This document shows, piece by piece, positions 18,163 through 53,571 of a DNA stretch of 64,000 nt (position 1 is the first letter of the stretch; every line of letters begins with the position of its first letter). The DNA lies in assembly GCF_005239135.1 (NCBI RefSeq), contig NZ_QKNX01000002.1, positions 186,001-250,000 of the forward strand, read 5' to 3'. Below the pieces are notes generated by a model. The model saw only the letters and a program-made list of their open reading frames with translations. It was not told the origin of the DNA and ran no database searches. Origin of the DNA: Natronomonas salsuginis (GTDB lineage Archaea; Halobacteriota; Halobacteria; Halobacteriales; Haloarculaceae). Made by a program: the position numbers and the translations under genes.

Positions 18163-18250
18163 CGTTCCGGAACGTCCAAGATCGTCGAACATATCCGAAA
18201 TAAGACACGAAGAGCAACGCTTTTGCGGATCGCTGGAGTGTGTTCGCCCA

Positions 18251-23460: not shown

Positions 23461-23925
23461 TTACTGACTGTCCGGACGCTTCAACGACAGCGCCGTTCGC
23501 TCGAACGAGCAGACGAGCGGCTCCTCGGGGTCGTTCACCTTGAACACCTCGACGCGCATAGTCACGATTCCGCGCTCGCCGTCGCTGGTCTCGTGTTTGT
23601 CCATCACCGTCGACTGGACGCGGATCGTGTCGCCGTGGAACACCGGTTCGGGGTGCTCGATGTCGTCGTACGAGAGGTTGGCGACGATGGTACCATCGGT
23701 GGTGTCGGGGATCGTGATCCCGACCGCCAGGCTCATCGTGTAGAGCCCGTTGACGAGGCGCTCGCCGAAATCGGTGTCGGCGGCGAACTCGGCATCCAGA
23801 TGGAGCGGCTGCTGGTTCATCGTCATGTCGCAGAACGTCTGGTTGTCGGCCTCCGAGACGGTGCGTCGCTTGTCGTGTTCGATGGTCTCGCCGACCTCGA
23901 ACTCCTCGTAGTAGCGTCCGGTCAT
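23461..23925 (-). CDS. MaoC-family (hot-dog) dehydratase
   Basis: 154 residues of the MaoC/(R)-hydratase fold. The hydratase signature is present in the form DNQTFCDMTMNQQPLHLDAEFA, with the Asp/Asn and His of the active site, followed by VNGLYTMSLAVGI. Such proteins hydrate 2-enoyl-CoA to 3-hydroxyacyl-CoA or act on branched unsaturated acyl-CoA. It is the last gene of the minus-strand run with the carboxylase subunits and an acyl-CoA dehydrogenase, so it probably supplies the hydration step there. Its stop is 16 nt from the convergent ligase-like gene. Confidence 0.88.
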   Translation of the reverse strand: MTGRYYEEFEVGETIEHDKRRTVSEADNQTFCDMTMNQQPLHLDAEFAADTDFGERLVNGLYTMSLAVGITIPDTTDGTIVANLSYDDIEHPEPVFHGDTIRVQSTVMDKHETSDGERGIVTMRVEVFKVNDPEEPLVCSFERTALSLKRPDSQ

Positions 23926-23968
23926 CGCGTCTCCCCCCGTCTCCGCGTCGTGGTCGTGCCGTAGTTCA

Positions 23969-25705
23969 TCATAGTACCGTTCCGTGCTTCTTGTCCGGGC
24001 GATCCTTCTCGACGCTCTCGTAGAACGCGAAGCGGTTCTCCAACTCCCGGCGCAGCGTGCTCGGCGGGACGACCTCGTCGATGACGACCTCGCTCGCCAT
24101 CCGCCGGGCGTCGATGTCCTCGCGGTACTCCTCGCGAAGCTCCTGCTCGCGCCGCTTTCGCTCCTCCTCGTCGTCGATTTCGGCGAGTTTTCTGGCGTAG
24201 ACGGCGTTGATCGCCGCCTCGGGCCCCATGATCGCGATCTCGCCGGATGGGAGCGCGAGCGTCGACTCGGGATCGTACGCCGGGCCGCTCATGGCGTAAA
24301 TGCCCGCGCCGTAGGCCTTCCGAACCACGACGCACTGTTTCGGCACCGTGGCCGACGACGTGGCGTAGATCATCTTCTTACCCTGTTCGAGGATCCCCTC
24401 CTTTTCGACCTGCGAACCGGCCATGAAGCCCGGCGTGTCCGCGAGGTACAGAAGCGGGATGTTGTAGGCGTCGCAGGTCCAGATGAACCCCGCGGCCTTC
24501 TCCGCCGAGTCGGGGAAGATCGCCCCCGCACGGTGGGCCGGCTGGTTGGCGACGATGCCGACGGGGCGACCGTCGATACGCGCGAAGCCGGTCAGGATCT
24601 CCTTGCCGTACTCCGGTCGGAGTTCGAACCAGGAATCGGCGTCGACGACCCGGTCGATCAGATCGAGCATATCGTAGCCGCGGTTCGGCTCTTGGGGGAT
24701 GACACCATCGATCCCCTTCGGCGGTTTCGCGGGATCGACCGGATCGGCCCGCGGCGGTTTCTCGTCGCTGTTGTCGGGGAGGTAGCCGACGAGCGTGGCG
24801 ACAAGCTCACGGGCGTGCTCCTCGTCGTCGGCGACGAGATCCGCGCTCCCGGAGTACGTCGCGTGTACGTCCGGACCGCCCAAATCCTCGAGGCTGATCT
24901 TCTCGCCGGTCACCATCTCGACCATCCGCGGGCTGGCGATCGCCATCGAACTCATCCCGCGGACCATGATCGTGAAGTCGGCGAATACGGGCGTGTAGGC
25001 GGCCCCGGCGATGCAGGGGCCGTACAGCACGCAGATCTGTGGGACCCGCCCCGACAGCATCGAATGGTTGTAGTAGTACTTGCCGACACCCTCGCGGTTG
25101 GCGAAGAAGCCGGTCTGTTGGTCGATCCGACCGCCGGAGGAGTCCATGAGATACAACACCGGCTGACCGGTCTTGAGCGCGCGCTGTTGCATCCGGAGGA
25201 ACTTCTCGACGCCCTTCGCGGCCATGCTCCCGCGTTTGACCGTGTAGTCGTTGGCCATGAAGTGGAGGTCGCGGCCCTCGAAATCCGCGGCCCCGGTGAT
25301 CATGCCGTCGGCGGGGAGCACGTCGTCCGCGTCGAACTCCGCGAACTTCCCGTCCTCGAAGAGGAGCCCGTCGTCGAACCACAGATCGATCCGGTCGCGG
25401 ACGAACTTCTTGCCCTGTTCGGGCAGCTGTTTTTTGTACTTTTCCTTGCCACCGGATTCGATCTCCTCGATCTCCTCCCAGAGGCGCTCCTCGCGTTCGG
25501 TGGGGCCGAGGTCGAGATCCGGTTCCGGCTCGGGCGCGTCCTCGCTGCCGAACTCGCCGTCACCGTCGCCATCGTAGCTCGCGTGGCCGAGTTCCTCGCC
25601 ACCGGTGGTGAGGACGGTCACGTCGTCTTCGAACCGTTCGGCGAGCGCCGCCGCGACCGCCCGTGCCTGTTCTACCGCCATCTCGTCCGATACTCTGACT
25701 TTCAT
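23969..25705 (-). CDS. Acyl-CoA carboxylase, carboxyltransferase subunit
   Basis: 578 residues. It moves the carboxyl group from carboxybiotin to an acyl-CoA such as propionyl- or methylcrotonyl-CoA. Both halves of the crotonase-like fold are visible: the N-terminal half with LMDSSGGRIDQQTGFFANREGVG and YGPCIAGAAYTPVFAD, and the C-terminal half with LTGFARIDGRPVGIVANQP, YLADTPGFMAGSQVEKEGI and YGAGIYAMSGPAYDP. The first ~65 residues (small alpha/beta segment then a Glu/Asp/Pro-rich linker) precede the usual start of the family. The biotin carboxylase gene is 7 nt upstream. The pattern DSSGGR and IDQQ resembles methylcrotonyl-type as much as propionyl-type, so the substrate is left open. Confidence 0.92.
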   Translation of the reverse strand: MKVRVSDEMAVEQARAVAAALAERFEDDVTVLTTGGEELGHASYDGDGDGEFGSEDAPEPEPDLDLGPTEREERLWEEIEEIESGGKEKYKKQLPEQGKKFVRDRIDLWFDDGLLFEDGKFAEFDADDVLPADGMITGAADFEGRDLHFMANDYTVKRGSMAAKGVEKFLRMQQRALKTGQPVLYLMDSSGGRIDQQTGFFANREGVGKYYYNHSMLSGRVPQICVLYGPCIAGAAYTPVFADFTIMVRGMSSMAIASPRMVEMVTGEKISLEDLGGPDVHATYSGSADLVADDEEHARELVATLVGYLPDNSDEKPPRADPVDPAKPPKGIDGVIPQEPNRGYDMLDLIDRVVDADSWFELRPEYGKEILTGFARIDGRPVGIVANQPAHRAGAIFPDSAEKAAGFIWTCDAYNIPLLYLADTPGFMAGSQVEKEGILEQGKKMIYATSSATVPKQCVVVRKAYGAGIYAMSGPAYDPESTLALPSGEIAIMGPEAAINAVYARKLAEIDDEEERKRREQELREEYREDIDARRMASEVVIDEVVPPSTLRRELENRFAFYESVEKDRPDKKHGTVL

Positions 25706-25712
25706 TCGTGAC

Positions 25713-27449
25713 TCACTCCAAGACCACCAGCGTATCGCCCATGTTCACCGAGTCGCCCTCCGAAACTGGGACCTCGGCGATTGTACCGCCGGTTTCGGCG
25801 AACACGTCGTTTTCCATCTTCATCGCTTCGAGCACACAGACGACGTCGCCCGCCGAAACGGTGTCGCCTTCGGATCGTTCGAGCGAGAGGATCGTCCCCT
25901 GCATCTCCGCGGTGATCGCACCCGCCTCGACGACACCGCTCTCGTCGCCCCCGGAACCGTCGCCCGAAGCCGCCACGACGCCGTCCTCGACGAGCACGTC
26001 GAACCGCCGTCCGTCGACCTCGACCGCCAGCGTCCGCGCGGAGGGAGGCTGGGCGTTCGCGCTCGTCTCGGCGGCACCCCACCGCTCGACGGCCGCCGCC
26101 AGCCGCTCCGCGTCGAGTTCCTCGTCGAGGTACTTCGTCGTGTGTTCGCCCCGTCTAAAGGCGTCGTCGTCGAGCATCAGCCGGTGGAACGGGATCGTCG
26201 TGTGCACGCCCTCGACCTCGAAGTGCTTCAGCGCGCGCTCGGAGCGGCGGAAACAGCGATCCCGATCGGGAGCGTGGACGATCAGCTTCGCGATCATCGA
26301 ATCGTAGTCGCCGCCGATGTCGTCCGCCTGCGAGACCGCGTGGTCGAGCCGGACCCCGACGCTCGACGGCGGGTCGTACGTTTCGAGGCGTCCGGGCGTC
26401 GGGGCGAACTCCTTCGCGGGGTTTTCGGCGTTGATCCGGAACTCGATCGCGTGGCCGTCGAACTCGACGTCGTCCTGACCGAAGTCGAGTTCCTCGCCCG
26501 CGGCGATCCGGATCTGCCAAGCCACGATGTCGATTCCGGTGATCTCCTCCGAAACCGTGTGTTCGACCTGAATCCGGGTGTTGACCTCCATGAAGTAGAA
26601 CTCGCCGTCTTCGACGAGGAACTCGACCGTCCCGGCATTGGTGTAGCCGGCCTCGCCGACGCCCCGGCGGGCGGCCTCGCCGATATCCTCGCGCAGCGCC
26701 GCCGTGAGCGATGGGCTCGGCGCTTCCTCGATGACCTTCTGGTGGCGGCGCTGGAGCGAACAATCCCGCTCGCCGAGGTGGCGGACGTTGCCGTGTTCGT
26801 CCGCGAGCACCTGCACCTCGATGTGCTTCGGCGAATCGAGATACTTCTCGACGTAGACGGAGTCGTTTCCGAAGTACGCCTCGCCCTCTCTCCGTGCGGT
26901 TTCGAGGGCGTCCTCGACCTCGTCGGGGCCGCGAACGATCTTCATGCCGCGGCCGCCGCCGCCGCCTTCGGCCTTGATTGCGATCGGATAGCCGTACTCC
27001 TCGCCGAGTTCGGCGACTTCCTCGGGCGTCTCGACGGGGTCGTTCGTCCCCGGAACGACCGGAACCCCGGCCGCGTCCATCACCGTTCGAGCCTTCGTCT
27101 TCTCCCCCAACCGCTCCATCGTGTCGCTCTCGGGGCCGACCCAGGTGAGCCCCTCGGCGGCCTCGACGCGTCTGGCGAACTCGGCGTTCTCGGCGAGGAA
27201 GCCGTAACCGGGGTGGATCGCATCGGCACCGGCCCGTTTCGCCGTTTCGACGATCGTCTCGCCGTCGAGATACGAGTCGGCGGCGGGCGCGGGTCCAACG
27301 TTGTACGCCTCGTCGGCGTACTCGACGTGGCCGGCGTTTCGGTCGGCGTCGCTGTATATCGCGACTGTCTCGACGCCAAGCTCTTCGCAGGCGGCCATCA
27401 CGCGGATCGCGATCTCCCCGCGGTTCGCGACGAGTAGTTTCTCGAACAT
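25713..27449 (-). CDS. Acyl-CoA carboxylase biotin carboxylase/biotin carrier subunit
   Basis: 578 residues: biotin carboxylase at about 1-445, a linker, and a biotin carrier domain at about 505-578. Visible are [12 protein letters not shown] at the start, the glycine-rich ATP loop [12 protein letters not shown], the catalytic region [16 protein letters not shown], and the biotinylation site EAMKMEN with Lys544. It carboxylates its own biotin with ATP and bicarbonate for transfer by the partner encoded 7 nt downstream. In haloarchaea such subunits serve propionyl-CoA or methylcrotonyl-CoA carboxylases. The operon order here is acyl-CoA dehydrogenase, this gene, carboxyltransferase, MaoC, all on the minus strand with gaps of 3, 7 and 43 nt. 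Confidence 0.95.
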
Positions 27450-27452
27450 GGT

Positions 27453-28619
27453 TCAGTACGATCTGGGGAAGCCGATCTCCTGGCTGATGTGGTTGTACGC
27501 CATCTGCTGGGTGACGGGCGCGAGCCGCGTCAGGTTGATCTCGCGCCACCAGCGCTCGACGTCGTACTCGGTGGCGTACCCCCAGCCGCCGAAGGCCTGC
27601 ATCGACTGTTTGACCGTCTCGATACCGGCCTCGACGGCGGTCGCCTTCGCGACGTTCGTCTCGTACCCGCAGGGCTCGTCCTGATCGTAGAGCCACTCCG
27701 CCTTCCGTCGCATCTGGGCGGCCGCCTCCATGCGCGCGTATGGCTTCGCGATCGGGAACGACACGGCCTGATGGGTGCCGATCGGCGTGCCGAACACCTC
27801 GCGGTCGTTGGCGTAATCGATCGCGGTGTGGGCCGCGAGCTTTCCGATCCCGGTCGCCGCCGCGGCGAACCCGATCCGTTCGGGGTTGAGCGTGCTGACG
27901 AGCGCGTCCCACCCGTCGCCACGGTCGCCCAGCAGGTTCTCTTCGGGAACGCGGACGTCCTCGAAGAACACCTCACAGGACTTCGAGTAGTTGATCGCGT
28001 GTTTCTCGATCGGGGAGACGTCGATCCCCGGCGAGTCCATGTCGACGACGAACAGACTGATGCCATCGGTACCGCGATCGACCTCCTCGCGTGGGGTCGT
28101 GCGCGTGACGAGGATCATATTGTCGGCGCGGTCCGAGAACGTGATCCACGCCTTCTGGCCGTTGAGGACGTACTCGTCACCGTCCTTCTCCGCGCGCGTC
28201 GAGACGTTGAGCGTGTTCGTCCCCGCCTCGGGCTCGGTGATACCGATCGAGAAGTTTCGATCGCCGGTCGCGATGTCGGTCAGATACGTTTCCTTCTGCT
28301 CGTCGGTGCCGTGTTTATTCAACCCGACCGTGGCCATGCCGGCGGTCAACACCAGATACCACGTGCCGGCCATCCCACAGCCCTCCGCACACAGCGTCTC
28401 CATCGCCAGGCCGAGTTCGGCCATCCCCATGTCGGCGCCGCCGTACTCCTCGGGGACGAGGAGGCCGTGAAAGCCCGCTTCGCCGAGTTCGTCCCAAAAA
28501 TCGGTGGCGAACTCGCCGTTCTCTTCTCTCTCCCGCCAGTATGCTGGGCCGAACTCCGTCGCGATCTCCGTTGCCGTCGAGGCGATCATCGAGTGTTCGG
28601 CACTCGTCTCGAATGTCAT
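27453..28619 (-). CDS. Acyl-CoA dehydrogenase (2), atypical C-terminus
   Basis: 388 residues, first gene of the carboxylase operon. The fold is complete: GLLVPEEYGGADMG, the FAD loop SIGITEPEAGTNTLN, KAWITFSDRADNMILV and QAFGGWGYATEYDVERWWRE. The C-terminus reads NLTRLAPVTQQMAYNHIS and then GFPRSY. The YEGT motif that supplies the base in short-chain enzymes is therefore replaced by an R-x-AP-type segment, seen in a separate acyl-CoA dehydrogenase branch. If active, it probably uses another acidic residue. An isovaleryl-CoA-like or other branched-chain substrate would suit a neighbouring methylcrotonyl-type carboxylase; this is inference. Confidence 0.9.
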   Translation of the reverse strand: MTFETSAEHSMIASTATEIATEFGPAYWREREENGEFATDFWDELGEAGFHGLLVPEEYGGADMGMAELGLAMETLCAEGCGMAGTWYLVLTAGMATVGLNKHGTDEQKETYLTDIATGDRNFSIGITEPEAGTNTLNVSTRAEKDGDEYVLNGQKAWITFSDRADNMILVTRTTPREEVDRGTDGISLFVVDMDSPGIDVSPIEKHAINYSKSCEVFFEDVRVPEENLLGDRGDGWDALVSTLNPERIGFAAAATGIGKLAAHTAIDYANDREVFGTPIGTHQAVSFPIAKPYARMEAAAQMRRKAEWLYDQDEPCGYETNVAKATAVEAGIETVKQSMQAFGGWGYATEYDVERWWREINLTRLAPVTQQMAYNHISQEIGFPRSY

Positions 28620-28730: not shown

Positions 28731-28740
28731 ATTTAAATAA
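28731..28740 (+). promoter_or_regulatory. TATA box of the ABC transporter operon
   Basis: ATTTAAATAA is centred about 35 nt upstream of the ATG at 28770. The expected transcription start near 28762 would exclude the earlier in-frame ATG at 28743 and supports 28770 as the start. Confidence 0.6.
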
Positions 28741-28769: not shown

Positions 28770-30101
28770 ATGAACATAGATGACAATACTCCAGACACTG
28801 ACGCTCACAGTCGACGGGGATTCCTCGGTAAAGCTGGTGGAGCAGCCGCAGCGGCCACGGCAGTCGGACTGGCGGGCTGTTCCGGCAACGGCAACGGCAG
28901 CAACGGAAACGGCGGCAACGGAAACGGCGGCAACGGCAACGGCGGCAACGGCGGCAACGGCAACGGCGGCATCGGTGAGGTTGACATTCCCGCGCTCTAC
29001 GACCTGAGTGGCGCGACGTCGGACGTCGGTCGGCCGACCGGGATCGGCTCGCGGGACGCGATCGCCTGGCTCAACGAGAGCGATGAGATCGACTTCCAGA
29101 TCGCCCACGACTGGGTCGACTACGCCTACGAGGTGCCCCAGGCACAGCAGAACTACTCCAGTTACACGTCGGGCGACGAGCCGCCGATCATCATCGGCTG
29201 GGGGACCGCCGACACGGAGGCGCTGGCCAGCGACGTGGCCGCCGACGAGATCGTCTACATCTCCGCGTCGTACTCCGACGACCTGCTCGGCGAGGAGACG
29301 CCGTACAACTTCTTCGCGAATCTCGATTACACCAGCCAGGGGCGTGCGCACGTGAAGTGGATCGCCGACAACGACCCGGACGCGACGGTCGCGTACATCC
29401 ACAACACGACCCCGTTCGGTGAGGCCCCCGTCGAAGGCGGAGAGGCCTACGCCGAGGAGCTCGGGCTCGATGTCGTCGACAGCATCGCCCTCGAACTCTC
29501 CGCTAACAGTGCCGACACGCAGGTCCAGCGGGCCGAGAACAACGGCGTCGACTACCTCATCCACCAGAACACGGCGGCACCGATGCAGGTGCTCTTGAGC
29601 TCGATCGAGGAGCGAGGCGCCGACATCGAGGTGATGGGGCTCACCTGGACTGTGGACGAGTTCCGCGCCCAGGAGGCACCCGACCTGTTCGAGGGCGTCA
29701 GATACGTCAACTCGAACATCTCGTTCGCGCAGGCGATGAATTCGGACGCCGACGGCTGGCAGATCATCGAGGAGTCGTTCGAGCGGGAGGGCCACAGCAT
29801 GGACAACCCCGAGATCGCGAACATCAACTACGTGCGCGGCGTCGTCCACGCGCTGTTGGCCGTCGAGGGTGTTCGACACGCCCAGGAGATGGGCCTCGAT
29901 CCGAGCAGCGGCGCGGACATCCGCGAGGCGCTCATCGATATCGACGACTTCGACGCCTGGGGGCTGTTGCCCGAGACCTACGACTACCAGGACGGCGACC
30001 GCCGACCGACGATGAACGGCCAGACCTACGTGGTCGAGGACGGCGAGATGGTCCCCGACGAGATGGTCGAACTCGAGCGCCGCGAGGACTGGCTCCCGTA
30101 A
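28770..30101 (+). CDS. Branched-chain-type ABC transporter substrate-binding lipoprotein (Tat-exported)
   Basis: 443 residues. The N-terminus has the twin-arginine motif SRRGFLGKAGG, a short hydrophobic stretch and the lipobox LAGC with Cys37. A low-complexity Gly/Asn linker (residues about 39-67) then lifts the binding domain off the membrane. The rest is a periplasmic-binding type I (LivJ-like) fold: LSGATSDVGRPTGIGSRDAIAWLNE, IIIGWGTADTEALASDVAAD, VAYIHNTTPFGEAPVEGGEAYAEELG. Start 28770 is preferred over 28743 because of the TATA position. It heads an operon with two ATPases, an acyl-CoA synthetase and two permeases. The ligand may be a carboxylic acid rather than an amino acid, given the embedded synthetase. 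Confidence 0.92.
   Translation: MNIDDNTPDTDAHSRRGFLGKAGGAAAAATAVGLAGCSGNGNGSNGNGGNGNGGNGNGGNGGNGNGGIGEVDIPALYDLSGATSDVGRPTGIGSRDAIAWLNESDEIDFQIAHDWVDYAYEVPQAQQNYSSYTSGDEPPIIIGWGTADTEALASDVAADEIVYISASYSDDLLGEETPYNFFANLDYTSQGRAHVKWIADNDPDATVAYIHNTTPFGEAPVEGGEAYAEELGLDVVDSIALELSANSADTQVQRAENNGVDYLIHQNTAAPMQVLLSSIEERGADIEVMGLTWTVDEFRAQEAPDLFEGVRYVNSNISFAQAMNSDADGWQIIEESFEREGHSMDNPEIANINYVRGVVHALLAVEGVRHAQEMGLDPSSGADIREALIDIDDFDAWGLLPETYDYQDGDRRPTMNGQTYVVEDGEMVPDEMVELERREDWLP
28884..28970 (+). repeat. GGCAAC-based tandem repeat coding for the Gly/Asn linker
   Basis: Imperfect tandem units of GGCAACGGC/GGCGGCAAC encode alternating Gly and Asn in the lipoprotein linker. Units are near identical, so the copy number is likely to vary between strains by slippage. 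It is protein-coding and not an independent element. Confidence 0.8.
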
Positions 30102-30102
30102 G

Positions 30103-30942
30103 ATGAGTGAAACCGAATCGAGCGGCGAAGCGACGGGCGAGGAGGAGGCGCCGGTCGTCGAACTCGACAACGCCGAGATCGTATACGATCGGAACTTCCT
30201 GGCCGTCCAGGGCGTTTCGATGAAAGCCGACCGCGGCGACATCGTCGCGCTGCTCGGCCCGAACGGGGCCGGGAAGTCCACGATCCTGAAGATGATCTCC
30301 GGCATCGGGCGCTCCGAGCGCGGCGAGGTGACCCGCGGCGACGTCTACTACGAGGGCGAGAAGGTCACGAACTTCCAGACGAAGGAGATGGTCGATCGCG
30401 GGGTCACCCACATCCTCGAGGGACGGCGGGTCTTTCCGGACCTGACCGTCGAGGAGAACCTTCGGTGTGGACTGTACCGCGAGGGGCGGCGAATCAGATA
30501 CGATAAATCGGACTACGAGCTCGCCTTCGAGTACTTCCCGCAGCTCGAGGACCTCCTCGACGTGCAGGCGGGGTACACGAGCGGCGGCGAGCAGCAGATG
30601 CTCGTCATCGCGCGGGCGCTGATCCACCGTCCGAACCTCCTTTTGCTGGACGAGCCGTCGCTCGGCCTCGCCCCGAAACTCGTCCAGGACATCTACGAGA
30701 CCCTCAGGGAGATCAACCGTGAGGAGGAGATCACGATGATCATCGCCGACCAGAACGCACAGCGGACCCTCGAGATCGCCGACTACGGCTACGTCCTCGA
30801 GAACGGCCAGATCGAACTTAACGACCCGGCGGACGTGCTGGTGAACCGCGAGGAGATCAAGGAGTTCTACCTCGGCACCAGCAGCGAGGAGAGCCGATAC
30901 TCTGACATCCGCCACTACAAGATACGGAAGCGCTACACGTGA
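30103..30942 (+). CDS. livF: ABC transporter ATPase, LivF-type
   Basis: 279 residues of ABC ATPase. Walker A is GPNGAGKST, the signature is TSGGEQQ, and Walker B is LLLLDEPSLGLAP, followed by the switch region IIADQNAQ, in which Gln-Asn replaces the usual His of the H-loop as is common in LivF proteins. It powers import by the two permeases encoded downstream. The start lies 1 nt after the stop of the binding-protein gene, and the ORF ends 4 nt before the second ATPase. A longer N-terminal acidic tail (ESSGEATGEEEAP) is haloarchaeal. Confidence 0.93.
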   Translation: MSETESSGEATGEEEAPVVELDNAEIVYDRNFLAVQGVSMKADRGDIVALLGPNGAGKSTILKMISGIGRSERGEVTRGDVYYEGEKVTNFQTKEMVDRGVTHILEGRRVFPDLTVEENLRCGLYREGRRIRYDKSDYELAFEYFPQLEDLLDVQAGYTSGGEQQMLVIARALIHRPNLLLLDEPSLGLAPKLVQDIYETLREINREEEITMIIADQNAQRTLEIADYGYVLENGQIELNDPADVLVNREEIKEFYLGTSSEESRYSDIRHYKIRKRYT

Positions 30943-30946
30943 ACAC

Positions 30947-31783
30947 ATGAGCACTCAGGACACACCAAAGACAGGCGGCGGTGCGGGGATCAGGGGCGGC
31001 CCGTACGTCTCGCCCGACGATGCCGTGCTCGGCTGTCGCAACGTAACGAAGACCTTCGGCGCGATCACCGCCTGCGACGACATTTCGATCGGGATCGACG
31101 AGGGGGAGTGGGTGTCGATCGTCGGCCCGAACGGGGCCGGCAAGACGACGCTTTTGAACGTCCTCAACGGGTTTTACGACCCCGATCCGGGCGGCGAGAT
31201 CTTCTTCGAAGCCGAGGACGTGACTGCCGATCGAGCGTTCAAGCGAGCGCGGAAGGGACTCGGGCGGACGTTCCAGGGGCTCGAACTGTTCGAGGAGGAG
31301 GACGTCCTTGAGAACGTCATGACAGTACAGGCCGTCAAGGAACGGCCGAACCTCCTCTCGGCGCTCGCGTTCTACGGAACCGGACGAAAGGTCGAAGCAC
31401 AAAACATGCGGCGCGTCGAGGAGATCATCGACTATCTCGAACTCTGGGAGTACCGTCACAGCACCGTGTCGAGCCTCCCACTCGGCATCCAGCGCCGGGT
31501 CGATCTCGCACGGACGCTCGCGCTCGATCCCGACGTGCTGTTGCTCGACGAGGCGATGAGCGGGCTCACCTTCGACGAGAAGTACGACATGGTCCGGTTT
31601 CTGGCCGACCTCAACGAGGAGGAGGGGCTGACGCTCGTTATGATCGAACACGACCTCGAGGTCGTCACCGACGTCTCCGAGCGGATGATCGTCCTTCACA
31701 AGGGTGGCGTCATCGCCCGCGGTCCGCCGGACGATGTGACGAGCGATCCCGAAGTCAGAAATATCTACACGGGGGTGGACTGA
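30947..31783 (+). CDS. livG: ABC transporter ATPase, LivG-type
   Basis: 278 residues. Walker A is GPNGAGKTT, the signature region is LPLGIQRRVDLART (the LivG-type variant without SGG), Walker B is VLLLDEAMSGLTF, and the H-loop is VMIEHDLEVV. It pairs with the LivF-type subunit as the second nucleotide-binding domain. It differs from classical LivG by AMSG in place of EPxAG after Walker B, a variant seen in transporters that travel with acyl-CoA synthetase genes. The synthetase ATG follows its stop by 1 nt. Confidence 0.93.
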   Translation: MSTQDTPKTGGGAGIRGGPYVSPDDAVLGCRNVTKTFGAITACDDISIGIDEGEWVSIVGPNGAGKTTLLNVLNGFYDPDPGGEIFFEAEDVTADRAFKRARKGLGRTFQGLELFEEEDVLENVMTVQAVKERPNLLSALAFYGTGRKVEAQNMRRVEEIIDYLELWEYRHSTVSSLPLGIQRRVDLARTLALDPDVLLLDEAMSGLTFDEKYDMVRFLADLNEEEGLTLVMIEHDLEVVTDVSERMIVLHKGGVIARGPPDDVTSDPEVRNIYTGVD

Positions 31784-31784
31784 G

Positions 31785-33836
31785 ATGACGAACGCCGAAG
31801 AGGGGCTCGCCGAACCCGAGGTCGACGTCGGCGACGGGCCGACGATCGACCGGATCGTCGAACCGCCAGAGGGCGACATCGAGATCGTCGAGGACACCGC
31901 GCTCCCCGAAGTGCTCTTGGACCACGTCCAGGAGAACGGCGACGACACCGCGCTCCGGTGGAAACAGTTCGGCGTCTGGCAGGAGTTCACCTGGCGGGAG
32001 TACTACGACCGCGTCAAGTACTTCGCCATGGGGCTCGAAACCCTGGGATTCGATGAGGGCGACATCCTCTTTACGATCGGCTACAACCGCCCCCACCAGC
32101 TGTGGGCGTGGATGGGCGCACAGACGCTCGGCGGGATGGCCGCGCCGAACTACGAGGACATGTTGCCCGAAGCGATCGGCAATCAGCTCGAACTCCTCTC
32201 GCCGAAGGTCGCCTACGCCGAGGATCAAGAGATGGTCGACAAACTCCTGCAGGTCGCCGACCGAGCGCCGTCCCTAGAGGCGATCGTCTACCGCGACGAG
32301 AAGGGGATGTTCCGGTACGAGGACACGGCCGTGCCGGTCATGAGTTACGAGGAGATCGAAGCTCGCGGCAAGGAGCGTTTCGACAGCGGCGAGGTGACCA
32401 ACTCCGACCTCGAAACGCGCATTCGCGATGTCGATCCCCACGAACCGGCGATGCTGCCGCCGACGTCCGGGACGACTGGCATGCCGAAGCGCGTCCAGCT
32501 GTCGCACTTCAACTTCGTCAACCTCGCGAACGCCGCGATCGAGATCGATCCGCTCCCGGAGGGGTCGGACTACTTCTCGTATCTGCCGATGGCGTGGATC
32601 GGCGAGCAGATGATCCTCATGGCGGCGGCATTCTTGGGCGGTTGGACAGCCAACTTCCCCGAGGAGGCCGAAACCGAAAGCGAGGACCTCCGCGAGATCG
32701 GCCCAGAGATCATCTTCTCCTCACCGGGGGCCTACGAGAGCTGGGTCGCCGATATCAAAGCGAAGGTCGAGAACACGACCCGACTGAAGCGGTGGGTCTA
32801 CGAGAAGGCGATGGACATCGGCGAGCGCTACGCCCAGTACGTCAGCGGCGACAAGCGAGACGAGGAGCCGCCGGCGACGCTCCGGTTCGCACACTGGGCG
32901 GCCTACTGGACGGCCTACCGCCCGATCCTCGACAAGATCGGCCTCAAGCGGGCCAAGAACGTCTACACTGGCGGCGGCCCGCTCGGCGAGGACCACTTCC
33001 AGTACTACCACGCGCTCGGCGTGCCCTTGAAACAGATCTGGGGACAGTCCGAGGTCTGCGGGTTCGTGACGATGCACAGAGACGACGACATCCAGGTCGA
33101 GACCGTCGGCGAGGTGTTCCCGAACGTCCGCGTTGGGATCACGCCGGAGGGTGAACTCGTCGTCCGCGGTCCCGTCGTCACCTCGGGCTACTACAACCAG
33201 CCCGAAAAGACCGCGGAGGCCCTCGACGGTGAGTGGCTCCACACGGACGACTTCGGGGCGATCACCGACGACGGCCACATCAAGGTGTTCGACCGCATGG
33301 ACGACGTGATGGAGCTGACCGACGGCACTGCGGTCGCGCCGATCAGCGTCGAGACGAAGCTCAAATTCAACCCCTATATCAAGGAGGCGCTCATTGTCGG
33401 CGACGGCCGCGACTCGCTCGCCGCCGTGTTGAACATCCGCTTCGACAACGTGGCCGAATGGGCGGACCAGCGGGACATCCAGTACGCGGGGTACAAGGAT
33501 CTCACACAGAAGGAGCCGGTGCTCGAACTCCTCCGCGGCGTCGTCGCGGATACGAACGAGCGGCTCGAGGGACCGAGCATCGATCGGTTCGTCATCCTGT
33601 TCAAGGAGTTCGACGCCGACGACGGAGAAATGACACGAACCGGTAAGATCAGGCGCGAAATCGTGACGAACAGATACGACGAGTTGATCGAAGGGATCTA
33701 CAGCGGCGAGGAGACGGTCGAGATGGACGTAACGATAACGTATCAGGACGGCAGAGAATCGCGCGAGCGCGGCGAGATGACCGTCGTCGATCTGACCGAA
33801 CCCGACGCGCTCGTCGAGGGTGAGATCGATGGTTAA
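31785..33836 (+). CDS. Long-chain acyl-CoA synthetase-type AMP-forming ligase, inside the ABC operon
   Basis: 683 residues, the size of long-chain fatty acyl-CoA synthetases. It converts a carboxylic acid, ATP and CoA into acyl-CoA plus AMP. The ATP loop reads PPTSGTTGMPKRVQLSH, A5 reads QIWGQSEVCG, the A7 segment is LHTDDFGAITDDGHI, the A8 segment is VFDRMDDVMELTDG, and the C-terminal Lys is in TRTGKIRRE. All key motifs are present, so it should be active. It sits between the ATPase and permease genes and overlaps the next gene by 8 nt, so it is made together with the transporter. This suggests coupled import and activation of an organic acid (vectorial acylation); the substrate is unknown. 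Confidence 0.93.
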   Translation: MTNAEEGLAEPEVDVGDGPTIDRIVEPPEGDIEIVEDTALPEVLLDHVQENGDDTALRWKQFGVWQEFTWREYYDRVKYFAMGLETLGFDEGDILFTIGYNRPHQLWAWMGAQTLGGMAAPNYEDMLPEAIGNQLELLSPKVAYAEDQEMVDKLLQVADRAPSLEAIVYRDEKGMFRYEDTAVPVMSYEEIEARGKERFDSGEVTNSDLETRIRDVDPHEPAMLPPTSGTTGMPKRVQLSHFNFVNLANAAIEIDPLPEGSDYFSYLPMAWIGEQMILMAAAFLGGWTANFPEEAETESEDLREIGPEIIFSSPGAYESWVADIKAKVENTTRLKRWVYEKAMDIGERYAQYVSGDKRDEEPPATLRFAHWAAYWTAYRPILDKIGLKRAKNVYTGGGPLGEDHFQYYHALGVPLKQIWGQSEVCGFVTMHRDDDIQVETVGEVFPNVRVGITPEGELVVRGPVVTSGYYNQPEKTAEALDGEWLHTDDFGAITDDGHIKVFDRMDDVMELTDGTAVAPISVETKLKFNPYIKEALIVGDGRDSLAAVLNIRFDNVAEWADQRDIQYAGYKDLTQKEPVLELLRGVVADTNERLEGPSIDRFVILFKEFDADDGEMTRTGKIRREIVTNRYDELIEGIYSGEETVEMDVTITYQDGRESRERGEMTVVDLTEPDALVEGEIDG

Positions 33837-34743
33837 CGTCGCGACCCTCTTCGAGGTCGTCGTCACCGGGATCGGTCTCGGCGCGGTGTACGCCCTCGTC
33901 GCGATCGGGTTCTCGCTCATCTACAAGGTGACGGGTGTACTCAACTTCGCGCAGGGACAGCTCGCGCTGCTCGGCGCATACCTCGTGGTCGTCCTCACCA
34001 CCCCGCTTTTGATCGCGGTCGAACTGCCGGCCGCGGCGGCGATCGTGGTGACGCTGATCTTCGGGTTGCTGCTCGGTGTCGTCCTCGAGCGGGTGATATT
34101 TCGACACTTCATCGGGGAGCCGGTGCTCTCCGTGATCATCGTCACGCTCGCGCTCGGCGGGATCATCACCGGCGGCGTCAGGTTTCTGATCGGCCCCCAA
34201 TACCGGGCGTACCCCGACGCCCTGCGGCCGGACTGGAGCCTGCCGCTCCCGTTCGGCGTGGATCTGAGCGCGTCGTTCACTCTCGGCGTCGTCCTGTCGC
34301 TCGTGGTCGTGATCGCGCTCATGCTGTTCTTCAGATACACGGTAATCGGCTCGATCCTCCGTGCCGGCGCGAGCGACCAGCAGGCCGCGATGGTGCTCGG
34401 CATCTCGATCGAGCGGACGATCCTGTTGTCGTGGGCGCTCTCGATCGCCATCACGTCGATCGGCGGCCTGCTCTTTGCGATGTCGGCTGGCGGTGCGGGA
34501 TTCACGATCGAAGCGGTCGGGATCCTGATCTTCGCCGCTGTCGTCTTCGGCGGGCTCGACAGCATTCCGGGCGCGTTCTTGGGATCGCTCGTCGTCGGAC
34601 TAATACAGCAACTCGGCGCGTACTACGCCGAGCCGGTGATCGGCGCTGGCGTCGGGCAGGTGCTGCCGATGGTGTTCCTGCTCGTCGTTATCCTGGTCAA
34701 GCCGTACGGACTCTTCGGAACCGAACGAATAGAGAGGCTCTAA
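33829..34743 (+). CDS. livH: ABC transporter permease, LivH-type
   Basis: 304 residues with about eight membrane helices. The LivH hallmarks are GLGAVYALVAIGFSLIYKVTGVLNFAQGQ near the start, the cytoplasmic ATPase-contact loop around LRAGASDQQAAMVLGISIER, and FAAVVFGGLDSIPGAFLGSLVVG. The ATG at 33829 lies within the end of the synthetase gene (8-nt overlap), implying translational coupling; a GTG 9 nt earlier is the alternative. It forms the membrane channel with the LivM-type subunit encoded next. Confidence 0.92.
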   Translation: MVNVATLFEVVVTGIGLGAVYALVAIGFSLIYKVTGVLNFAQGQLALLGAYLVVVLTTPLLIAVELPAAAAIVVTLIFGLLLGVVLERVIFRHFIGEPVLSVIIVTLALGGIITGGVRFLIGPQYRAYPDALRPDWSLPLPFGVDLSASFTLGVVLSLVVVIALMLFFRYTVIGSILRAGASDQQAAMVLGISIERTILLSWALSIAITSIGGLLFAMSAGGAGFTIEAVGILIFAAVVFGGLDSIPGAFLGSLVVGLIQQLGAYYAEPVIGAGVGQVLPMVFLLVVILVKPYGLFGTERIERL

Positions 34744-34745
34744 TC

Positions 34746-34817
34746 ATGTCACAGAACGCACGGTACACACGGATCGAATCGACGTCGACTGCCACGGCGG
34801 CCGGGAGGTGCGTCTGA
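34746..34817 (+). CDS. Small 23-codon ORF in front of livM (leader peptide or shifted N-terminus)
   Basis: ATG at 34746 starts 2 nt after the livH stop and runs 23 codons to a TGA at 34815-34817 that overlaps the livM ATG by one base (TGATG). Termination-reinitiation could couple livM to it. Alternatively it is the original N-terminus of LivM separated by a frameshift, because LivM proteins often have a soluble N-terminal tail of this size. Neither is proven; the peptide (MSQNARYTRIES...) resembles no family known to me. Confidence 0.4.
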   Translation: MSQNARYTRIESTSTATAAGRCV

Positions 34818-35851
34818 TGCCCTGCGGTGAGTACTTCACCTCCTATGCGGACCGGATGGGACTGGTCCGCTGGCGCATCGAGCGCGTCGCCTTCGTCCTC
34901 GGGTTGCCGATCCCGTTTCTCATCCCCTTCGTGCTCGGTGGCGGGATGGTCTCGATGATCACCCGCATCTACATCTTCATCATCGCCATACTGGGGTTAC
35001 ACGTCATCCTCGGCTACGCCGGGGAGATCGTCCTCGCGCAGGGGGCGTTCATGGCGATCGGCGCGTACACGTCGACGCGACTCGTCGCCGAGGCGGGCGT
35101 CGGGATCATCCCCGGGATGCTCGTCGGCGGGCTGTTGACCGCCTTCGTCGCCGTCCTGTTCGGCCTGCCGTCGTGGCGCGTCAAGGGCTTTTACATCGCC
35201 ATTTCGACGCTCGCGCTGCAGTTCATCGCGCTGTGGTTCCTTCAGAACAATCAGTTGGCGTTCATCCACGGCGGGTCCCAGCAGAATCTCCCCCGCGACG
35301 TCGGGCTGATCGGGGAGTACGTCACCATCAGCTCGCCGACCGAGCAGTACTTCTTCATCCTCGCGGCCTTGGCGGTGTTCGCGCTGGTAACCTTCAACCT
35401 CAGCCGGACGGGGATCGGGCGGATGTTCCGCGGGATCCACGAGAACGACCTCTCGTCGGCCGTGTTGGGGATCAACGTCTTCCGGAACAAGCTGCTCGCG
35501 TACGCGATCGGCGGCTTCATGATCGGCGCGGCCGGTGCGCTGTATTCGCTGTACATCGGCTTCATCAGCCCCGGGTACTTCACGATCGAGCTCACTCTAG
35601 AGCACTACGTGATGTTGTTGCTCGGTGGGATGGGCCGCGTCTGGGGCGTCGTCCTCGGCGTCTCGATCGTGACGATCGTCGAAGAGGAGATCCGGAATTT
35701 CCTAGTGGCCTACGCGTCGGACGCGACGGCCCTCGAACCGGTGTTCTTCGGTATCCTCATCATCGTCGTCCTCGCCGTCGAGCCGAAGGGGCTGTTGGCG
35801 GGGCTCGGACAGATCAAAGACTACCTGCGGAAGTGGCCCTACGCCTACTGA
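34817..35851 (+). CDS. livM: ABC transporter permease, LivM-type
   Basis: 344 residues with eight to ten membrane helices. LivM features include LHVILGYAGEIVLAQGAFMAIGAY, the loop LSRTGIGRMFRGIHENDLSSAVLGINVFRNKLLAYAIG split around the contact helix, and LLGGMGRVWGVVLG. The ATG at 34817 was chosen over the in-frame GTG at 34808 because it overlaps the preceding small ORF stop as TGATG; the difference is three residues. The last helix is followed by a short basic tail (KDYLRKWPYAY). It completes the importer whose genes start at 28770. Confidence 0.92.
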   Translation: MPCGEYFTSYADRMGLVRWRIERVAFVLGLPIPFLIPFVLGGGMVSMITRIYIFIIAILGLHVILGYAGEIVLAQGAFMAIGAYTSTRLVAEAGVGIIPGMLVGGLLTAFVAVLFGLPSWRVKGFYIAISTLALQFIALWFLQNNQLAFIHGGSQQNLPRDVGLIGEYVTISSPTEQYFFILAALAVFALVTFNLSRTGIGRMFRGIHENDLSSAVLGINVFRNKLLAYAIGGFMIGAAGALYSLYIGFISPGYFTIELTLEHYVMLLLGGMGRVWGVVLGVSIVTIVEEEIRNFLVAYASDATALEPVFFGILIIVVLAVEPKGLLAGLGQIKDYLRKWPYAY

Positions 35852-35976
35852 CGGGCACTTCCTCCCGGCGGGGGTCGCGCTCCGTCGGGAGACCGAATGT
35901 CGCGTCGAACCGGACCCGCAGCCACATCGAGGGCAGAAGCGAACCGCCGCCGTCACCGTGACCGGCGTGCCCGACA

Positions 35977-35984
35977 CATATATT
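35977..35984 (+). promoter_or_regulatory. TATA box of the UspA gene
   Basis: CATATATT is centred 28 nt upstream of the ATG at 36009. It gives the UspA-amidohydrolase pair its own promoter, separate from the ABC operon. Confidence 0.55.
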
Positions 35985-36008
35985 TGTGATGCGCGATCAC
36001 ACGTGTGT

Positions 36009-36392
36009 ATGTACACCATCGTCGCCGGTGTCGACACCGACACGGATCGGGCGCGCCGAGTCGCAGAGGAGATCACAGGGCTGCCGATCGACGACGTTCA
36101 CGTGATTCTCACCCACTCGTTCGAGAAGAATCCCGAAGGTGCCTCGATCGATCAGGTCGGTGCCGCGCGGAAGGCCCGTAACCTGCTGGAATCACACGGT
36201 ATCGAAGTCTCGTTCGAGGAGCGAAGCGGCAACCCGGCGACGATCGTCAATGCCGTCGCCGACGACGCCGACGCCGACCTGATCTGCGTCGCGGGGCGCG
36301 AGCGGAGCCCGGCAGGCAAGGCCGTCTTCGGCAGCGTAACGCAGGACGTCATCCTGAACACCGACCGTCCGGTGCTCGTCTGCGGGAACTGA
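36009..36392 (+). CDS. Universal stress protein UspA family
   Basis: 127 residues, one Usp domain. Strand 1 is YTIVAGVD, and the C-terminal nucleotide-binding segment reads VAGRERSPAGKAVFGSVTQDVILNTDRPVLV, a good match to the GxxGx9G[ST] ATP motif apart from the first spacing. It therefore resembles ATP-binding Usp proteins, unlike the one at the left edge. The ATG at 36009 follows a well-placed TATA box; an upstream in-frame start at 35958 is unlikely. The amidohydrolase gene starts 3 nt after its stop, so they are cotranscribed. Usp genes often accompany transporters as nucleotide sensors, which may apply here. Confidence 0.9.
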   Translation: MYTIVAGVDTDTDRARRVAEEITGLPIDDVHVILTHSFEKNPEGASIDQVGAARKARNLLESHGIEVSFEERSGNPATIVNAVADDADADLICVAGRERSPAGKAVFGSVTQDVILNTDRPVLVCGN

Positions 36393-36395
36393 GCG

Positions 36396-37253
36396 ATGTC
36401 GGAGAGGCCCGACGATGGATTCGCGCCGGCGATCGATGCCCACGTCCACCTGTTCCCGGAACGGCTCGCGAGTGCGATCCAGCGGACGCTCACCGACGCG
36501 GCCGGCTGGGAGTTCGAGTACGCCATCGACCGACCATCGATGGAATCGACGCTGGTCGACGCCGGCGTCGAGCGATACGTCGCGTTGCCGTACGCGCACA
36601 AGGCCGGTGTGGCGGTCGGGCTCAACGAGTGGCTCGCCGCGGAGGCGGCCGACTCCGACCGACTCATCCCGTTCGCGACGGTTCATCCCGACGACGACGG
36701 GGTCGGCGAGATCGTCCGGGAGGCGTTCGAGGCCGGCGCTCGGGGCCTGAAGTTTCACTGCCCGGTACAGGAGTGTGCGCCGGCGGATCCGCGGATCGAA
36801 TCCGCGCTCGAGGTTGCCGTCGAGTACGACCGGCCGATCACCTACCACGGGGGCACCGCGCCGATGTATGAGGACGACCCGAACGTCGGGGCCGATCGCT
36901 TCGCCGAAGTGGTCGAGTCGTTCCCCGACCTCCGGGTCAACTGCGCGCACATGGGCACCTATGAGGTCGACGCGTTCGTCGAGATGGCCCGCGAACACGA
37001 GAACGTCTACCTCGACACGACGTTCGCGATGTCGACGGAGGCCGAGGAGATAATGGGGTTCGACCCTTCGAGCATCGACGACGAGGTGTTCGAGACGCTC
37101 TCGGGATCGATCATGTACGGGAGCGACTTCCCGAACATCCCCTACCCCTACCGGGCGGAGCGGGCCGAACTGCTCGGACGGGACCTGTCGGCGGAGACGT
37201 ATCGGGACATCTTCTACCGGACGGCGATCGACTTCCTCGGGCTCGACGATTAG
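36396..37253 (+). CDS. Amidohydrolase family metal-dependent hydrolase/decarboxylase (amidohydrolase_2)
   Basis: 285 residues of the amidohydrolase_2 TIM barrel. Metal-site motifs are DAHVHLF near the N-terminus (HxH), GLKFHCPVQ and ITYHGGTA (His ligands), NCAHMGTYE, and the late Asp in YGSDFPNIPY. Members of this branch hydrolyse or decarboxylate aromatic or alicyclic carboxylates, including ACMSD and resorcylate-type decarboxylases. It is cotranscribed with UspA and lies between the acid importer and CoA-ligase-like genes, so a role in breaking down the imported acid is plausible. Its stop codon overlaps the convergent ligase-like gene by 3 nt. Confidence 0.88.
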   Translation: MSERPDDGFAPAIDAHVHLFPERLASAIQRTLTDAAGWEFEYAIDRPSMESTLVDAGVERYVALPYAHKAGVAVGLNEWLAAEAADSDRLIPFATVHPDDDGVGEIVREAFEAGARGLKFHCPVQECAPADPRIESALEVAVEYDRPITYHGGTAPMYEDDPNVGADRFAEVVESFPDLRVNCAHMGTYEVDAFVEMAREHENVYLDTTFAMSTEAEEIMGFDPSSIDDEVFETLSGSIMYGSDFPNIPYPYRAERAELLGRDLSAETYRDIFYRTAIDFLGLDD

Positions 37254-38413
37254 TACCGCTCGTCGAAGACGCCCGGCTCCTCCAGGTCGTCGACGAGCGT
37301 GAGTTCGTCCGGCGAGATGACGAGCCGGCTGGCGAGCGCCTCGGCGAGTTCGGCCTCGTCGGCGGTGCCCTCACAGACGATCTCGAGGTGGTCCGTCGAC
37401 TCGGGGCGCGTCACCCGGACCGCGAACTCCCCGGTCAGCCCGTCGAAGGCGGCGAGGACGGCGGGGATGCTCTCCGGATACACCTTCACACCCTTGACCT
37501 TCAGCCGGTCGTCGGTTCGGCCGATGACGCCGTCGGGGAGGACGAGGTCGTCTCCTCGCCGCTCCAACTCGGCGAGATCGCCCGTCCGGAACCGGACCAG
37601 CGGGAACCCCTCCTTGCGACGATGGGTGACCACGACCTCCCCGCGCTCGCCGAGCGGGAGGGGCTCGCCGCTGTCGGGGTCGACGATCTCGACGATCGCG
37701 TAATCGGTGGCGACGCGGAGGCCGTTTTCCGCGTCGGTCTCGGCGGCGATCGGGAGGACGTGACGGGTGCCGAAGTAGTCGATCGCCGTCTCGCAGTCGA
37801 GTGCGTCTTTGACCTCCTCGCGGTAGCCGGGGATCGAGGTGAACGGTTCGCCGCCGCCGACCAAGACGTCGACGGACGCGCCCGCCTCGGCGATCTTCAG
37901 CGCGAAGCTCGGGTTGCCGACCAGCACGTCGACGTCGTACTCGGAGATGAAGCCGGCCGCCTGCTCGGAGTCGCCCGGACCGACCGGGAACACTTCAGCG
38001 CCGAGTTCCTCGAGGCCGCGCTGGAGCAGAATCCCGGTCCCGAAGAGGTGGTACCCGAACGTGTTGAGGACGCGATCGCCCGGTTTGATCCCCGCCGCCT
38101 CGAAGAGGTCGGCGTTGACCTCCGCCTCGTAGTCGAGGTCCGCGCGGGTGTCGAACATCGGCGCGAGATCGTCGCCGAGCGGCGAAAACGAGATCATCGC
38201 GCCCTCGGTGTACAGCGATCCCTCGGGACCGTGCGCGTCGAAGTCGGCCTTCAGGTCGCCCGATTCGGTGAAGGGAATCGACTGAAAGTCAGCCCACGAA
38301 CCGAGATCGGTCGGATCGACGTCGGCCTCGGCGAACGCCTCGGCGTAGAGGTCGTGTTCGGCCGCCCGCTCCAGTTGCTCCTCGAGGTCGGCAAGCACCG
38401 TGCTGTCGTACAT
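37250..38413 (-). CDS. Phenylacetate-CoA-ligase-like (PaaK/F390 synthetase family) protein with degenerate ATP loop
   Basis: 387 residues aligned along the PaaK family: GIKPGDRVLNTFGYHLFGTGILLQRGLEELG, FISEYDVDVLVGNPSFALKIAE, VRFRTGDLAEL, IGRTDDRLKVKGVKVYPESI. The segment corresponding to the ATP loop SSGTTGKPT reads FSPLGDDLAP, and the second nucleotide segment (normally YGLSE) reads YFGTRH. Both adenylation motifs are thus lost while the fold remains. It may bind an acid or acyl-CoA without activating it, or use another chemistry. The ATG at 38413 (MYDSTVLADLEEQ) is the family start. It is the only minus-strand gene next to the amidohydrolase. Confidence 0.8.
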   Translation of the reverse strand: MYDSTVLADLEEQLERAAEHDLYAEAFAEADVDPTDLGSWADFQSIPFTESGDLKADFDAHGPEGSLYTEGAMISFSPLGDDLAPMFDTRADLDYEAEVNADLFEAAGIKPGDRVLNTFGYHLFGTGILLQRGLEELGAEVFPVGPGDSEQAAGFISEYDVDVLVGNPSFALKIAEAGASVDVLVGGGEPFTSIPGYREEVKDALDCETAIDYFGTRHVLPIAAETDAENGLRVATDYAIVEIVDPDSGEPLPLGERGEVVVTHRRKEGFPLVRFRTGDLAELERRGDDLVLPDGVIGRTDDRLKVKGVKVYPESIPAVLAAFDGLTGEFAVRVTRPESTDHLEIVCEGTADEAELAEALASRLVISPDELTLVDDLEEPGVFDERY

Positions 38414-38514
38414 ACGATGGGATGTACTCACCGCACACATAAAGAAATTTCCCAGCGGCCGGGCGTGCGGCCGACGTTTTTCTGGGGCTCGGCACAAAGA
38501 CGTCCCGAAGTGAC

Positions 38515-52931: not shown

Positions 52932-52940
52932 AATATTTTT
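52932..52940 (+). promoter_or_regulatory. TATA box of the antitoxin-toxin pair
   Basis: AATATTTTT lies 26-34 nt upstream of the antitoxin ATG at 52966 in a locally AT-rich stretch; it predicts a leaderless or nearly leaderless bicistronic mRNA. Confidence 0.55.
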
Positions 52941-52965
52941 GTCTGTACCCACAGTAGATCACAGT

Positions 52966-53196
52966 ATGTCCGATGCGACACTCGACGACCGAGGGCGTCT
53001 GACGCTACCAAAGGAGATGCGCGAGCGGTACGGGGACCGCTACCACATCGTCGAGGTTCACGACGCGATCAAGTTGATCCCGGTCGCCGACGACCCGCTC
53101 GACACACTCCGAGACGAGTTTTCTGGCGTTGAGAAGACGGCAGAGGAACTTCTCGATGAGGCTCGCGAAGCGGCGCTGGACGAGGCGGGACGCTGA
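52966..53196 (+). CDS. AbrB/MazE-type antitoxin (VapB-like)
   Basis: 76 residues. The N-terminal 45 residues form a SpoVT/AbrB swapped-hairpin DNA-binding domain (TLDDRGRLTLPKEMRERYG, VEVHDAIKLIPV). The C-terminal helix (KTAEELLDEAREAALDEAGR) is the expected toxin-binding part. It would neutralise the PIN toxin encoded immediately downstream and repress the shared promoter. The start at 52966 is favoured by a TATA element; a TTG at 52939 is the only earlier option. Confidence 0.9.
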   Translation: MSDATLDDRGRLTLPKEMRERYGDRYHIVEVHDAIKLIPVADDPLDTLRDEFSGVEKTAEELLDEAREAALDEAGR

Positions 53197-53571
53197 ATGT
53201 ACGCGGAAACCGATTTCCTCCTCGCGCTCATCAAAGACGAAGGCTGGCTCGGCGAAGGTGCCGAAACGGTGTACCGAAATCATCGTGACGAACTGTGGAC
53301 GTCGCAGTTTACGCTCATTGAACTACTCTTGGTCGCCTACCGGGAAGACAGGGATACGGAACGAGTCGTCGCCAACGCCGCCAATCTCGTGGATGTTCGC
53401 GGCGACGTTGAGACGGTCGTCACGGCGGCAGCGTACGTCGAGGATGACGAGTTCACGCCCTTCGACGCGCTTCACATCGTCGAGTCGGACGGTGACACCA
53501 TCGTCTCCAGCGACGGCGCGTATGAGGGGTTCGCCCCTCGCCTCGACCTGAAGAGCGTGACCGAGGAATAA
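53197..53571 (+). CDS. PIN-domain ribonuclease toxin (VapC-like)
   Basis: 124 residues of the PIN fold. The four acidic metal-binding residues are recognisable: Asp6 (MYAETD), Glu42 (TLIELL), Asp90 (PFDALH) and Asp106 (SSDGAYE). It is a Mg-dependent RNase, presumably cutting tRNA or another RNA to slow growth when unchecked. Its ATG directly follows the antitoxin TGA with no gap. All catalytic residues are intact, so the pair is likely functional. It lies 42 nt upstream of rfcL on the same strand, so read-through into rfcL is possible. Confidence 0.9.
   Translation: MYAETDFLLALIKDEGWLGEGAETVYRNHRDELWTSQFTLIELLLVAYREDRDTERVVANAANLVDVRGDVETVVTAAAYVEDDEFTPFDALHIVESDGDTIVSSDGAYEGFAPRLDLKSVTEE

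Follow-up and report, generated by a model that had tools for sequence, protein, structure and literature searches.

What business has an acyl-coenzyme A (acyl-CoA) synthetase inside a transporter operon? The question is raised by a 64,000-nucleotide (nt) stretch of the haloarchaeon Natronomonas salsuginis (contig NZ_QKNX01000002.1, positions 186,001 to 250,000; the whole stretch is called the window below, and coordinates refer to it), where the genes of an ATP-binding cassette (ABC) importer of the leucine/isoleucine/valine (LIV) type share one cluster with a FadD-type synthetase. An initial annotation of the window had read this cluster as a system that takes up a carboxylic acid and traps it as a CoA ester. 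We arrive at a similar view: the operon probably serves the ATP-driven uptake of a hydrophobic carboxylic acid and its activation, a reading that is unproven but fits the operon, its conservation across phyla, the intact motifs of the synthetase and the binding data for LIV-type proteins in the accessible part of the published work cited below. The genes at the centre of the argument, with the element that precedes them and the PaaK-like gene beyond them, are the following.

~28732-28739, plus strand: TATA-like promoter element TTTAAATA, read from the sequence, about 30 nt 5' of the ATG of the substrate-binding protein (SBP), in the divergent ACD2/SBP intergenic region
28770-30101, plus strand: SBP of the LIV family (Peripla_BP_6), a twin-arginine translocation (Tat) lipoprotein by family search, visible motifs and structure model
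30103-30942, plus strand: LivF-like ABC ATPase (ABC_tran)
30947-31783, plus strand: LivG-like ABC ATPase (ABC_tran; BCA_ABC_TP_C)
31785-33836, plus strand: FadD-type acyl-CoA synthetase with intact motifs (AMP-binding and AMP-binding_C_3)
33829-34743, plus strand: LivH-like permease (BPD_transp_2), overlapping the synthetase gene by 8 nt
34746-34817, plus strand: open reading frame (ORF) of 23 amino acids bridging LivH and LivM, a candidate translational-coupling leader
34817-35851, plus strand: LivM-like permease (BPD_transp_2)
37250-38422, minus strand: PaaK-like protein without P-loop and without C-terminal Lys, a predicted module-specific pseudo-ligase (alignments, model)

Whether such a cluster is more than a chance assembly can be judged from related genomes. 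Of the 391 genomes surveyed in the class, 20 have the synthetase (counted at E <= 1e-60), that of the window being one of them. The order SBP-LivF-LivG-FadD-LivH-LivM, on one strand, is common to all 19 other haloarchaeal loci fetched (in L046, SBP and LivM are both broken in two); the six-gene operon is real and not due to chance. All parts of a LIV/HAAT-type importer are present in the one cluster, namely a Peripla_BP_6 SBP, two BPD_transp_2 permeases and two ABC ATPases, and the LivF, LivG, LivH and LivM proteins score far under the curated cut-offs of the models of those names. The first four genes are separated by 1, 4 and 1 nt, and the synthetase gene then overlaps LivH by 8 nt; the single tight operon of the initial annotation thus holds for six plus-strand genes, except that LivM starts 73 nt past the LivH stop. 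That gap is filled by the mini-ORF, which opens 2 nt past the LivH stop and runs into the LivM ATG. An equivalent, opening 1-5 nt past the LivH stop and reaching or overrunning the LivM start, was found in 17 of the 19 related loci (L028-L046), the exceptions being L029, which has none, and L046, whose copy ends short of LivM. The mini-ORF is poorly conserved in sequence and looks like a candidate leader for translational coupling. The TATA-like element is kept in two genomes of the same genus and, at its distance of about 30 nt, supports the SBP start at 28770; the six genes are predicted to be co-transcribed.

The synthetase itself matches AMP-binding with 180.3 bits (cut-off 29.9) and AMP-binding_C_3 with 38.8 bits (cut-off 20.8). 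Residues S228-G-T-T231, E423, D489, R504 and K621 are invariant in all 17 aligned synthetases, and we take them to be the SGTTG P-loop, the A5 Glu, the Asp, the Arg and the C-terminal Lys of the family; judged by this alignment, the catalytic motifs are intact. About 40 residues past AMP-binding_C_3 (33700-33836; ...TITYQDGRES...) recur in the aligned bacterial module synthetases and lie outside the FadD11 model. This C-terminal stretch is possibly a docking tail.

Similar ABC-ligase clusters had been said to occur in bacteria, and this was borne out. Using tblastn over plasmids we obtained 95 records with synthetase relatives, all below 60% identity, and in each of the five loci inspected (Deinococcus, Azospirillum, Polaromonas, Marinovum and Nitratireductor) the synthetase lay inside a LIV operon. 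A scan of species genomes yielded at least 570 confirmed relatives; its two peptide patterns came from synthetases of the module, so that it favours module members. The best 80 of these were kept, all of them bacterial, 35-42% identical to the window synthetase and spread over Bacillota, Chloroflexota, Deinococcota, Pseudomonadota and others. A LIV component stood on the same strand within 3.5 kb of the synthetase in 80/80 kept loci, and all of LivF, G, H and M were visible in 60 of the 80 stretches. In a tree of 105 synthetases (quick method, midpoint root), the 20 haloarchaeal sequences formed one clade on a long stem. Bacterial operons of this kind, for example in Thermus, Bacillota, Chloroflexota and Pseudomonadota, have the same components as the window's, with the synthetase placed next to LivG and LivH or between them. 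They differ in gene order, which is LivG-FadD-LivH-LivM-SBP-LivF as against SBP-LivF-LivG-FadD-LivH-LivM in haloarchaea, and in that the haloarchaeal module has an Amidohydro_2 gene, and often a UspA gene, added. Their neighbourhoods hold genes for acyl-CoA dehydrogenases, electron-transfer flavoprotein, hydratases and CoA transferases. On these comparisons, the window operon belongs to the haloarchaeal branch of a LIV+FadD module that is widespread and mostly uncharacterised. A possible link to FadR in Thermus was left unused: sites 1-2 mismatches off the published FadR consensus (PMC5597230) lie upstream of the LIV-FadD operon on three contigs, but a divergent gene (rpmH-like by eye) borders on the same intergenic region, and the operon was not recognised in Table 2 of that paper.

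The least expected part of the system is the PaaK-like protein. The initial annotation had it following the operon genes; it lies on the minus strand and outside the operon, and an acetate/acyl-CoA ligase gene is likewise on the minus strand. Its label proved apt as to fold: the model (predicted local distance difference test, pLDDT, 76.8) has the PaaK fold over the full length of the chain (2y4o, Z 34.0, 377 residues, root-mean-square deviation 3.7). Unlike the phenylacetate-CoA ligases 2y27 and 2y4o, which it resembles in this respect, the window protein lacks the P-loop, the A5 Glu and the C-terminal Lys, and is not simply an additional ligase. The SSGT-type motif of PaaK is its P-loop, according to the accessible part of PMC13186573, where the LIV+FadD module is not dealt with; here SSGTTG is replaced by SFSPLGDDLAP, and residues 80-82, at the replaced loop, are among the least confident parts of the model. 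The P-loop is missing in all haloarchaeal copies compared (19 aligned rows and L034). Among 39 bacterial rows beside LIV-FadD operons it was found in none of the 37 that could be assessed, most of them reading xSPGPxxxP; in the other two, L066 and L068, no residues aligned there. The A5 Glu is mostly replaced in these proteins, and the C-terminal GK is gone in the haloarchaeal ones and kept in most proteobacterial ones. Against a clean split from true PaaK counts one of seven control haloarchaeal PaaK homologues, L168, which has no P-loop and whose match in genome G140 (42% identity) contains a single in-frame stop; five controls keep SSGT[TS]G and one, L166, was unreadable. Since the P-loop is lost in every assessable module copy, the PaaK-like protein is by all appearances a conserved, module-specific pseudo-ligase and not a second ligase. 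No description of this conserved pseudo-ligase turned up in the accessible text of the literature searched, and several of the searches yielded nothing on the module.

The association of this protein with the synthetase is close. At 61-100% identity its distribution coincides with that of the synthetase, with 20/20 positive genomes and 0/371 others (Fisher p ~6e-34, a value that ignores shared ancestry), and within the fetched stretches it was present at 19/19 loci. Four genomes carry a relative of 51-54% identity (L132-L135), also without P-loop, which lies near another AMP ligase and beta-oxidation-like genes and, in two cases, shares its locus with another LIV transporter; the remaining matches reach at most 42% identity and are for the most part ordinary PaaK. 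The PaaK-like and amidohydrolase genes do not keep one orientation from locus to locus, so that their presence is not mere inherited synteny. Beside bacterial operons, a P-loop-less PaaK-like gene is frequent, occurring in 32 of the 48 loci in which the LIV set is complete and the sequence extends 3 kb or more past LivF. It is absent from the other 16, all five Thermaceae among them, which makes the pseudo-ligase common but not essential to the bacterial module.

Clues to what the system carries come from the SBP, in which a twin-arginine motif (SRRGFLG) and a lipobox (LAGC) are visible and which matches Peripla_BP_6 with 122.7 bits. The nearest PDB entries to its model (pLDDT 84.3) were 3lkb (Z 49.7), 3eaf from Aeropyrum (Z 48.4) and 4n03 (Z 43.2); the next row had Z 39.7, and leucine-, aromatic-acid-, urea- and amide-binding proteins came after. 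By its title, 4n03, third in rank, is the substrate-binding protein of an ABC transporter for fatty acid; the comparison with it was by fold and via a related SBP. A high profile score of 3lkb was left unused, being inflated by the Thermus SBPs included in the profile. With E. coli LivKHMGF/LivJ the window operon shares transporter architecture and families, whereas the E. coli system has no CoA ligase and LivJ differs in its pocket: all ten LivJ pocket positions compared with the fetched LivJ/LivK differ in the window SBP. The column of LivJ Glu226, a residue with a role in holding the amino group, has a T in the window SBP, and 0/43 module SBPs are acidic there.

Published work on other ABC transporters is consistent with an acid. 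According to the accessible text of PMC3223731, most of the SBPs annotated as LIV-type in R. palustris bind aromatic, fatty or dicarboxylic acids and not Leu/Ile/Val; RPA3723 and RPA3724 bind fatty and dicarboxylic acids and adjoin the pim operon, which encodes the acyl-CoA ligase PimA. The transporter with the closely related SBPs RPA3723-3725, beside pimFABCDE, resembles ours in being genetically linked to a ligase, with a matching ligase substrate range, and it differs in that the ligase sits in an adjacent operon and not inside the transporter operon. Random barcode transposon sequencing (RB-TnSeq), as far as the available part of PMC12543098 reports it, found predicted ABC transporters, which may or may not belong to the module, needed for pimelate and for C7-C8 fatty acids in the beta-proteobacteria Ralstonia and Cupriavidus.

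In the scheme that we favour, the Tat-exported lipoprotein would capture the acid outside the cell, LivH/M and LivF/G would carry it inward, and the synthetase, presumably co-transcribed, would make the CoA thioester at the membrane and so trap the acid, the thioester then feeding acyl-CoA dehydrogenase and beta-oxidation enzymes. The PaaK-like protein might serve as a non-catalytic partner, for instance as a subunit of the synthetase, structural or regulatory, or as a carrier of acyl-adenylate or acyl-CoA. As to the acid, we consider an aliphatic one (medium-chain, methyl-branched or alicyclic) likelier than one with an aromatic ring.

The genes around the operon bear on this scheme and on its rivals.

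36006-36392, plus strand: UspA-family protein, accessory (family search; 12/19 related loci)
36396-37253, plus strand: Amidohydro_2 metal-dependent hydrolase or decarboxylase-like protein, accessory (family search; 18/19 related loci)
27453-28619, minus strand: acyl-CoA dehydrogenase ACD2, divergent from the operon (context; family search)
23461-27449, minus strand: MaoC hydratase and acyl-CoA carboxylase beta and alpha subunits (context; family search)
18239-19948: methylmalonyl-CoA-mutase-like large subunit, farther upstream (context; family search)

UspA does follow the operon on the same strand, as first annotated, and begins 154 nt after LivM; with such a gap, it could be transcribed separately. 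For the amidohydrolase, which had likewise been named as a neighbour, the association is strong and not exclusive: it occurs in 20/20 synthetase-positive and 46/371 synthetase-negative genomes (p ~2e-17). In two genomes without the synthetase (L137 and L138), it adjoins a LIV importer other than that of the module, together with carboxylase genes, and the association recurs there; because of this second setting, which leaves the substrate unfixed, we rejected the enzyme as a key to the substrate. It had no sequence match in the PDB. ACD2 and the carboxylase were found within 4/19 and 2/19 of the fetched stretches. The mutase-like large subunit (18239-19948) and the acyl-CoA carboxylase (23969-27449) of the window are second ones of their kind, since another carboxylase beta gene (41% identical) and a mutase with epimerase lie elsewhere in the genome; for this reason, and with the carboxylase near only 2/19 module loci, a propionyl-CoA route was dropped as proof of substrate. 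The same genome has five LIV-type loci, two others of which (L160 and L161, on contig C2) also adjoin acyl-CoA activation genes, L160 with an Acs-like ligase just upstream of its SBP and L161 with a ligase and, by eye, CoA-transferase-like and hydratase-like genes. With three of five LIV loci linked to CoA activation, such linkage is the rule and not the exception in this genome. Farther off, an AbrB-like small gene is followed immediately by a PIN-like one (52939-53571, by eye), possibly a toxin-antitoxin pair.

Several observations weigh against an acid importer. The strongest, against a pure acid importer, is 3lkb, whose title names bound valine and which is the SBP of a Thermus LIV-FadD operon (L054, SBP match E 1.5e-235); the initial annotation had set its proposal against a protein binding only leucine, isoleucine or valine or urea-type ligands, and this Thermus structure comes close to that case. 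A co-purified or modelled ligand, on the other hand, need not be physiological. The nearby genes (two acyl-CoA dehydrogenases, the carboxylase and the mutase) also suit the catabolism of branched-chain amino or keto acids, and genes for isobutyryl- and isovaleryl-CoA dehydrogenase lie near the Azospirillum module locus. The other LIV SBPs found in the genome of the window also lack Glu226, which makes its loss weak and non-discriminating evidence. Finally, the synthetase falls under the curated NCBIfam cut-off in all 25 models listed, the long-chain FadD11/FadD15-like ones included (best FadD11, 240.9 against 950 bits), so that the sequence does not reveal the chain length of its acid. A rival reading is an importer of branched-chain amino (or keto) acids with a ligase recruited to recover isovalerate, isobutyrate and 2-methylbutyrate from their catabolism, transport and activation then concerning different molecules of one pathway. 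The valine of 3lkb, the Azospirillum locus and the window's dehydrogenases, carboxylase and mutase-like gene all favour this account, which we consider unlikely yet credible. The Thermus SBPs, however, are 23-24% identical to the window's, with different pocket columns (WGT[AG]DTE against Y[AS]TG) and T or N against H in the Glu226 column between window-type and Thermus proteins; the synthetase matches the long-chain FadD11/FadD models best, the carboxylase accompanies few module loci (2/19), and the doubt about co-purified ligands applies here too.

An importer of aromatic or aryl-alkanoic acids (benzoate, phenylacetate or phenylpropanoid type) strikes us as improbable. Ring-acid decarboxylases belong to the Amidohydro_2 family, a member of which neighbours the operon; the partner protein is of the PaaK family, and several LIV-type SBPs of solved structure bind aromatic acids (PDB rows between 10 and 39). 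Those rows, however, rank under 3lkb, 3eaf and 4n03, and the PaaK-like protein lacks the ATP-binding loop, scores 200.5 against a cut-off of 700 for the haloarchaeal PaaK NCBIfam model, and occupies a set of genomes distinct from that of ordinary PaaK; among the near-operon genes searched, which were not all of them, no ring oxygenase or reductase was recognised. Even less can be said for the synthetase as a mere passenger, a general fatty-acid ligase lodged in a LIV operon without functional coupling, which we regard as very improbable. Acyl-CoA ligases are numerous in the genome (17 AMP-binding matches at E 1e-50 or better), and physical interaction of synthetase and importer is hypothetical, but same-strand embedding is kept in 19/19 haloarchaeal and 80/80 bacterial loci.

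The uptake-and-activation reading can be carried one step further, to a single membrane complex of LIV importer, FadD and P-loop-less PaaK homologue for transport-coupled acylation. LivH/M would then pass the acid on to the synthetase, itself docked on the ATPases, with the pseudo-ligase as a scaffold or carrier subunit. We offer this as a speculative and rather unlikely extension; if true, the complex would be an ABC-driven counterpart of the vectorial acylation by E. coli FadL/FadD, common to bacteria and haloarchaea. The pseudo-ligase is the best handle for experiments.

The uptake of fatty and branched acids in haloarchaea is poorly understood; the lipid debris of archaea would supply some of these acids. 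The system described here is the haloarchaeal member of a kind widespread in bacterial genomes, with characterised analogues. Many bacterial and archaeal genes annotated as branched-chain amino acid transporters probably carry organic acids; a built-in ligase may mark which of them do, and the module would thus provide a sequence test for acid-carrying LIV systems.

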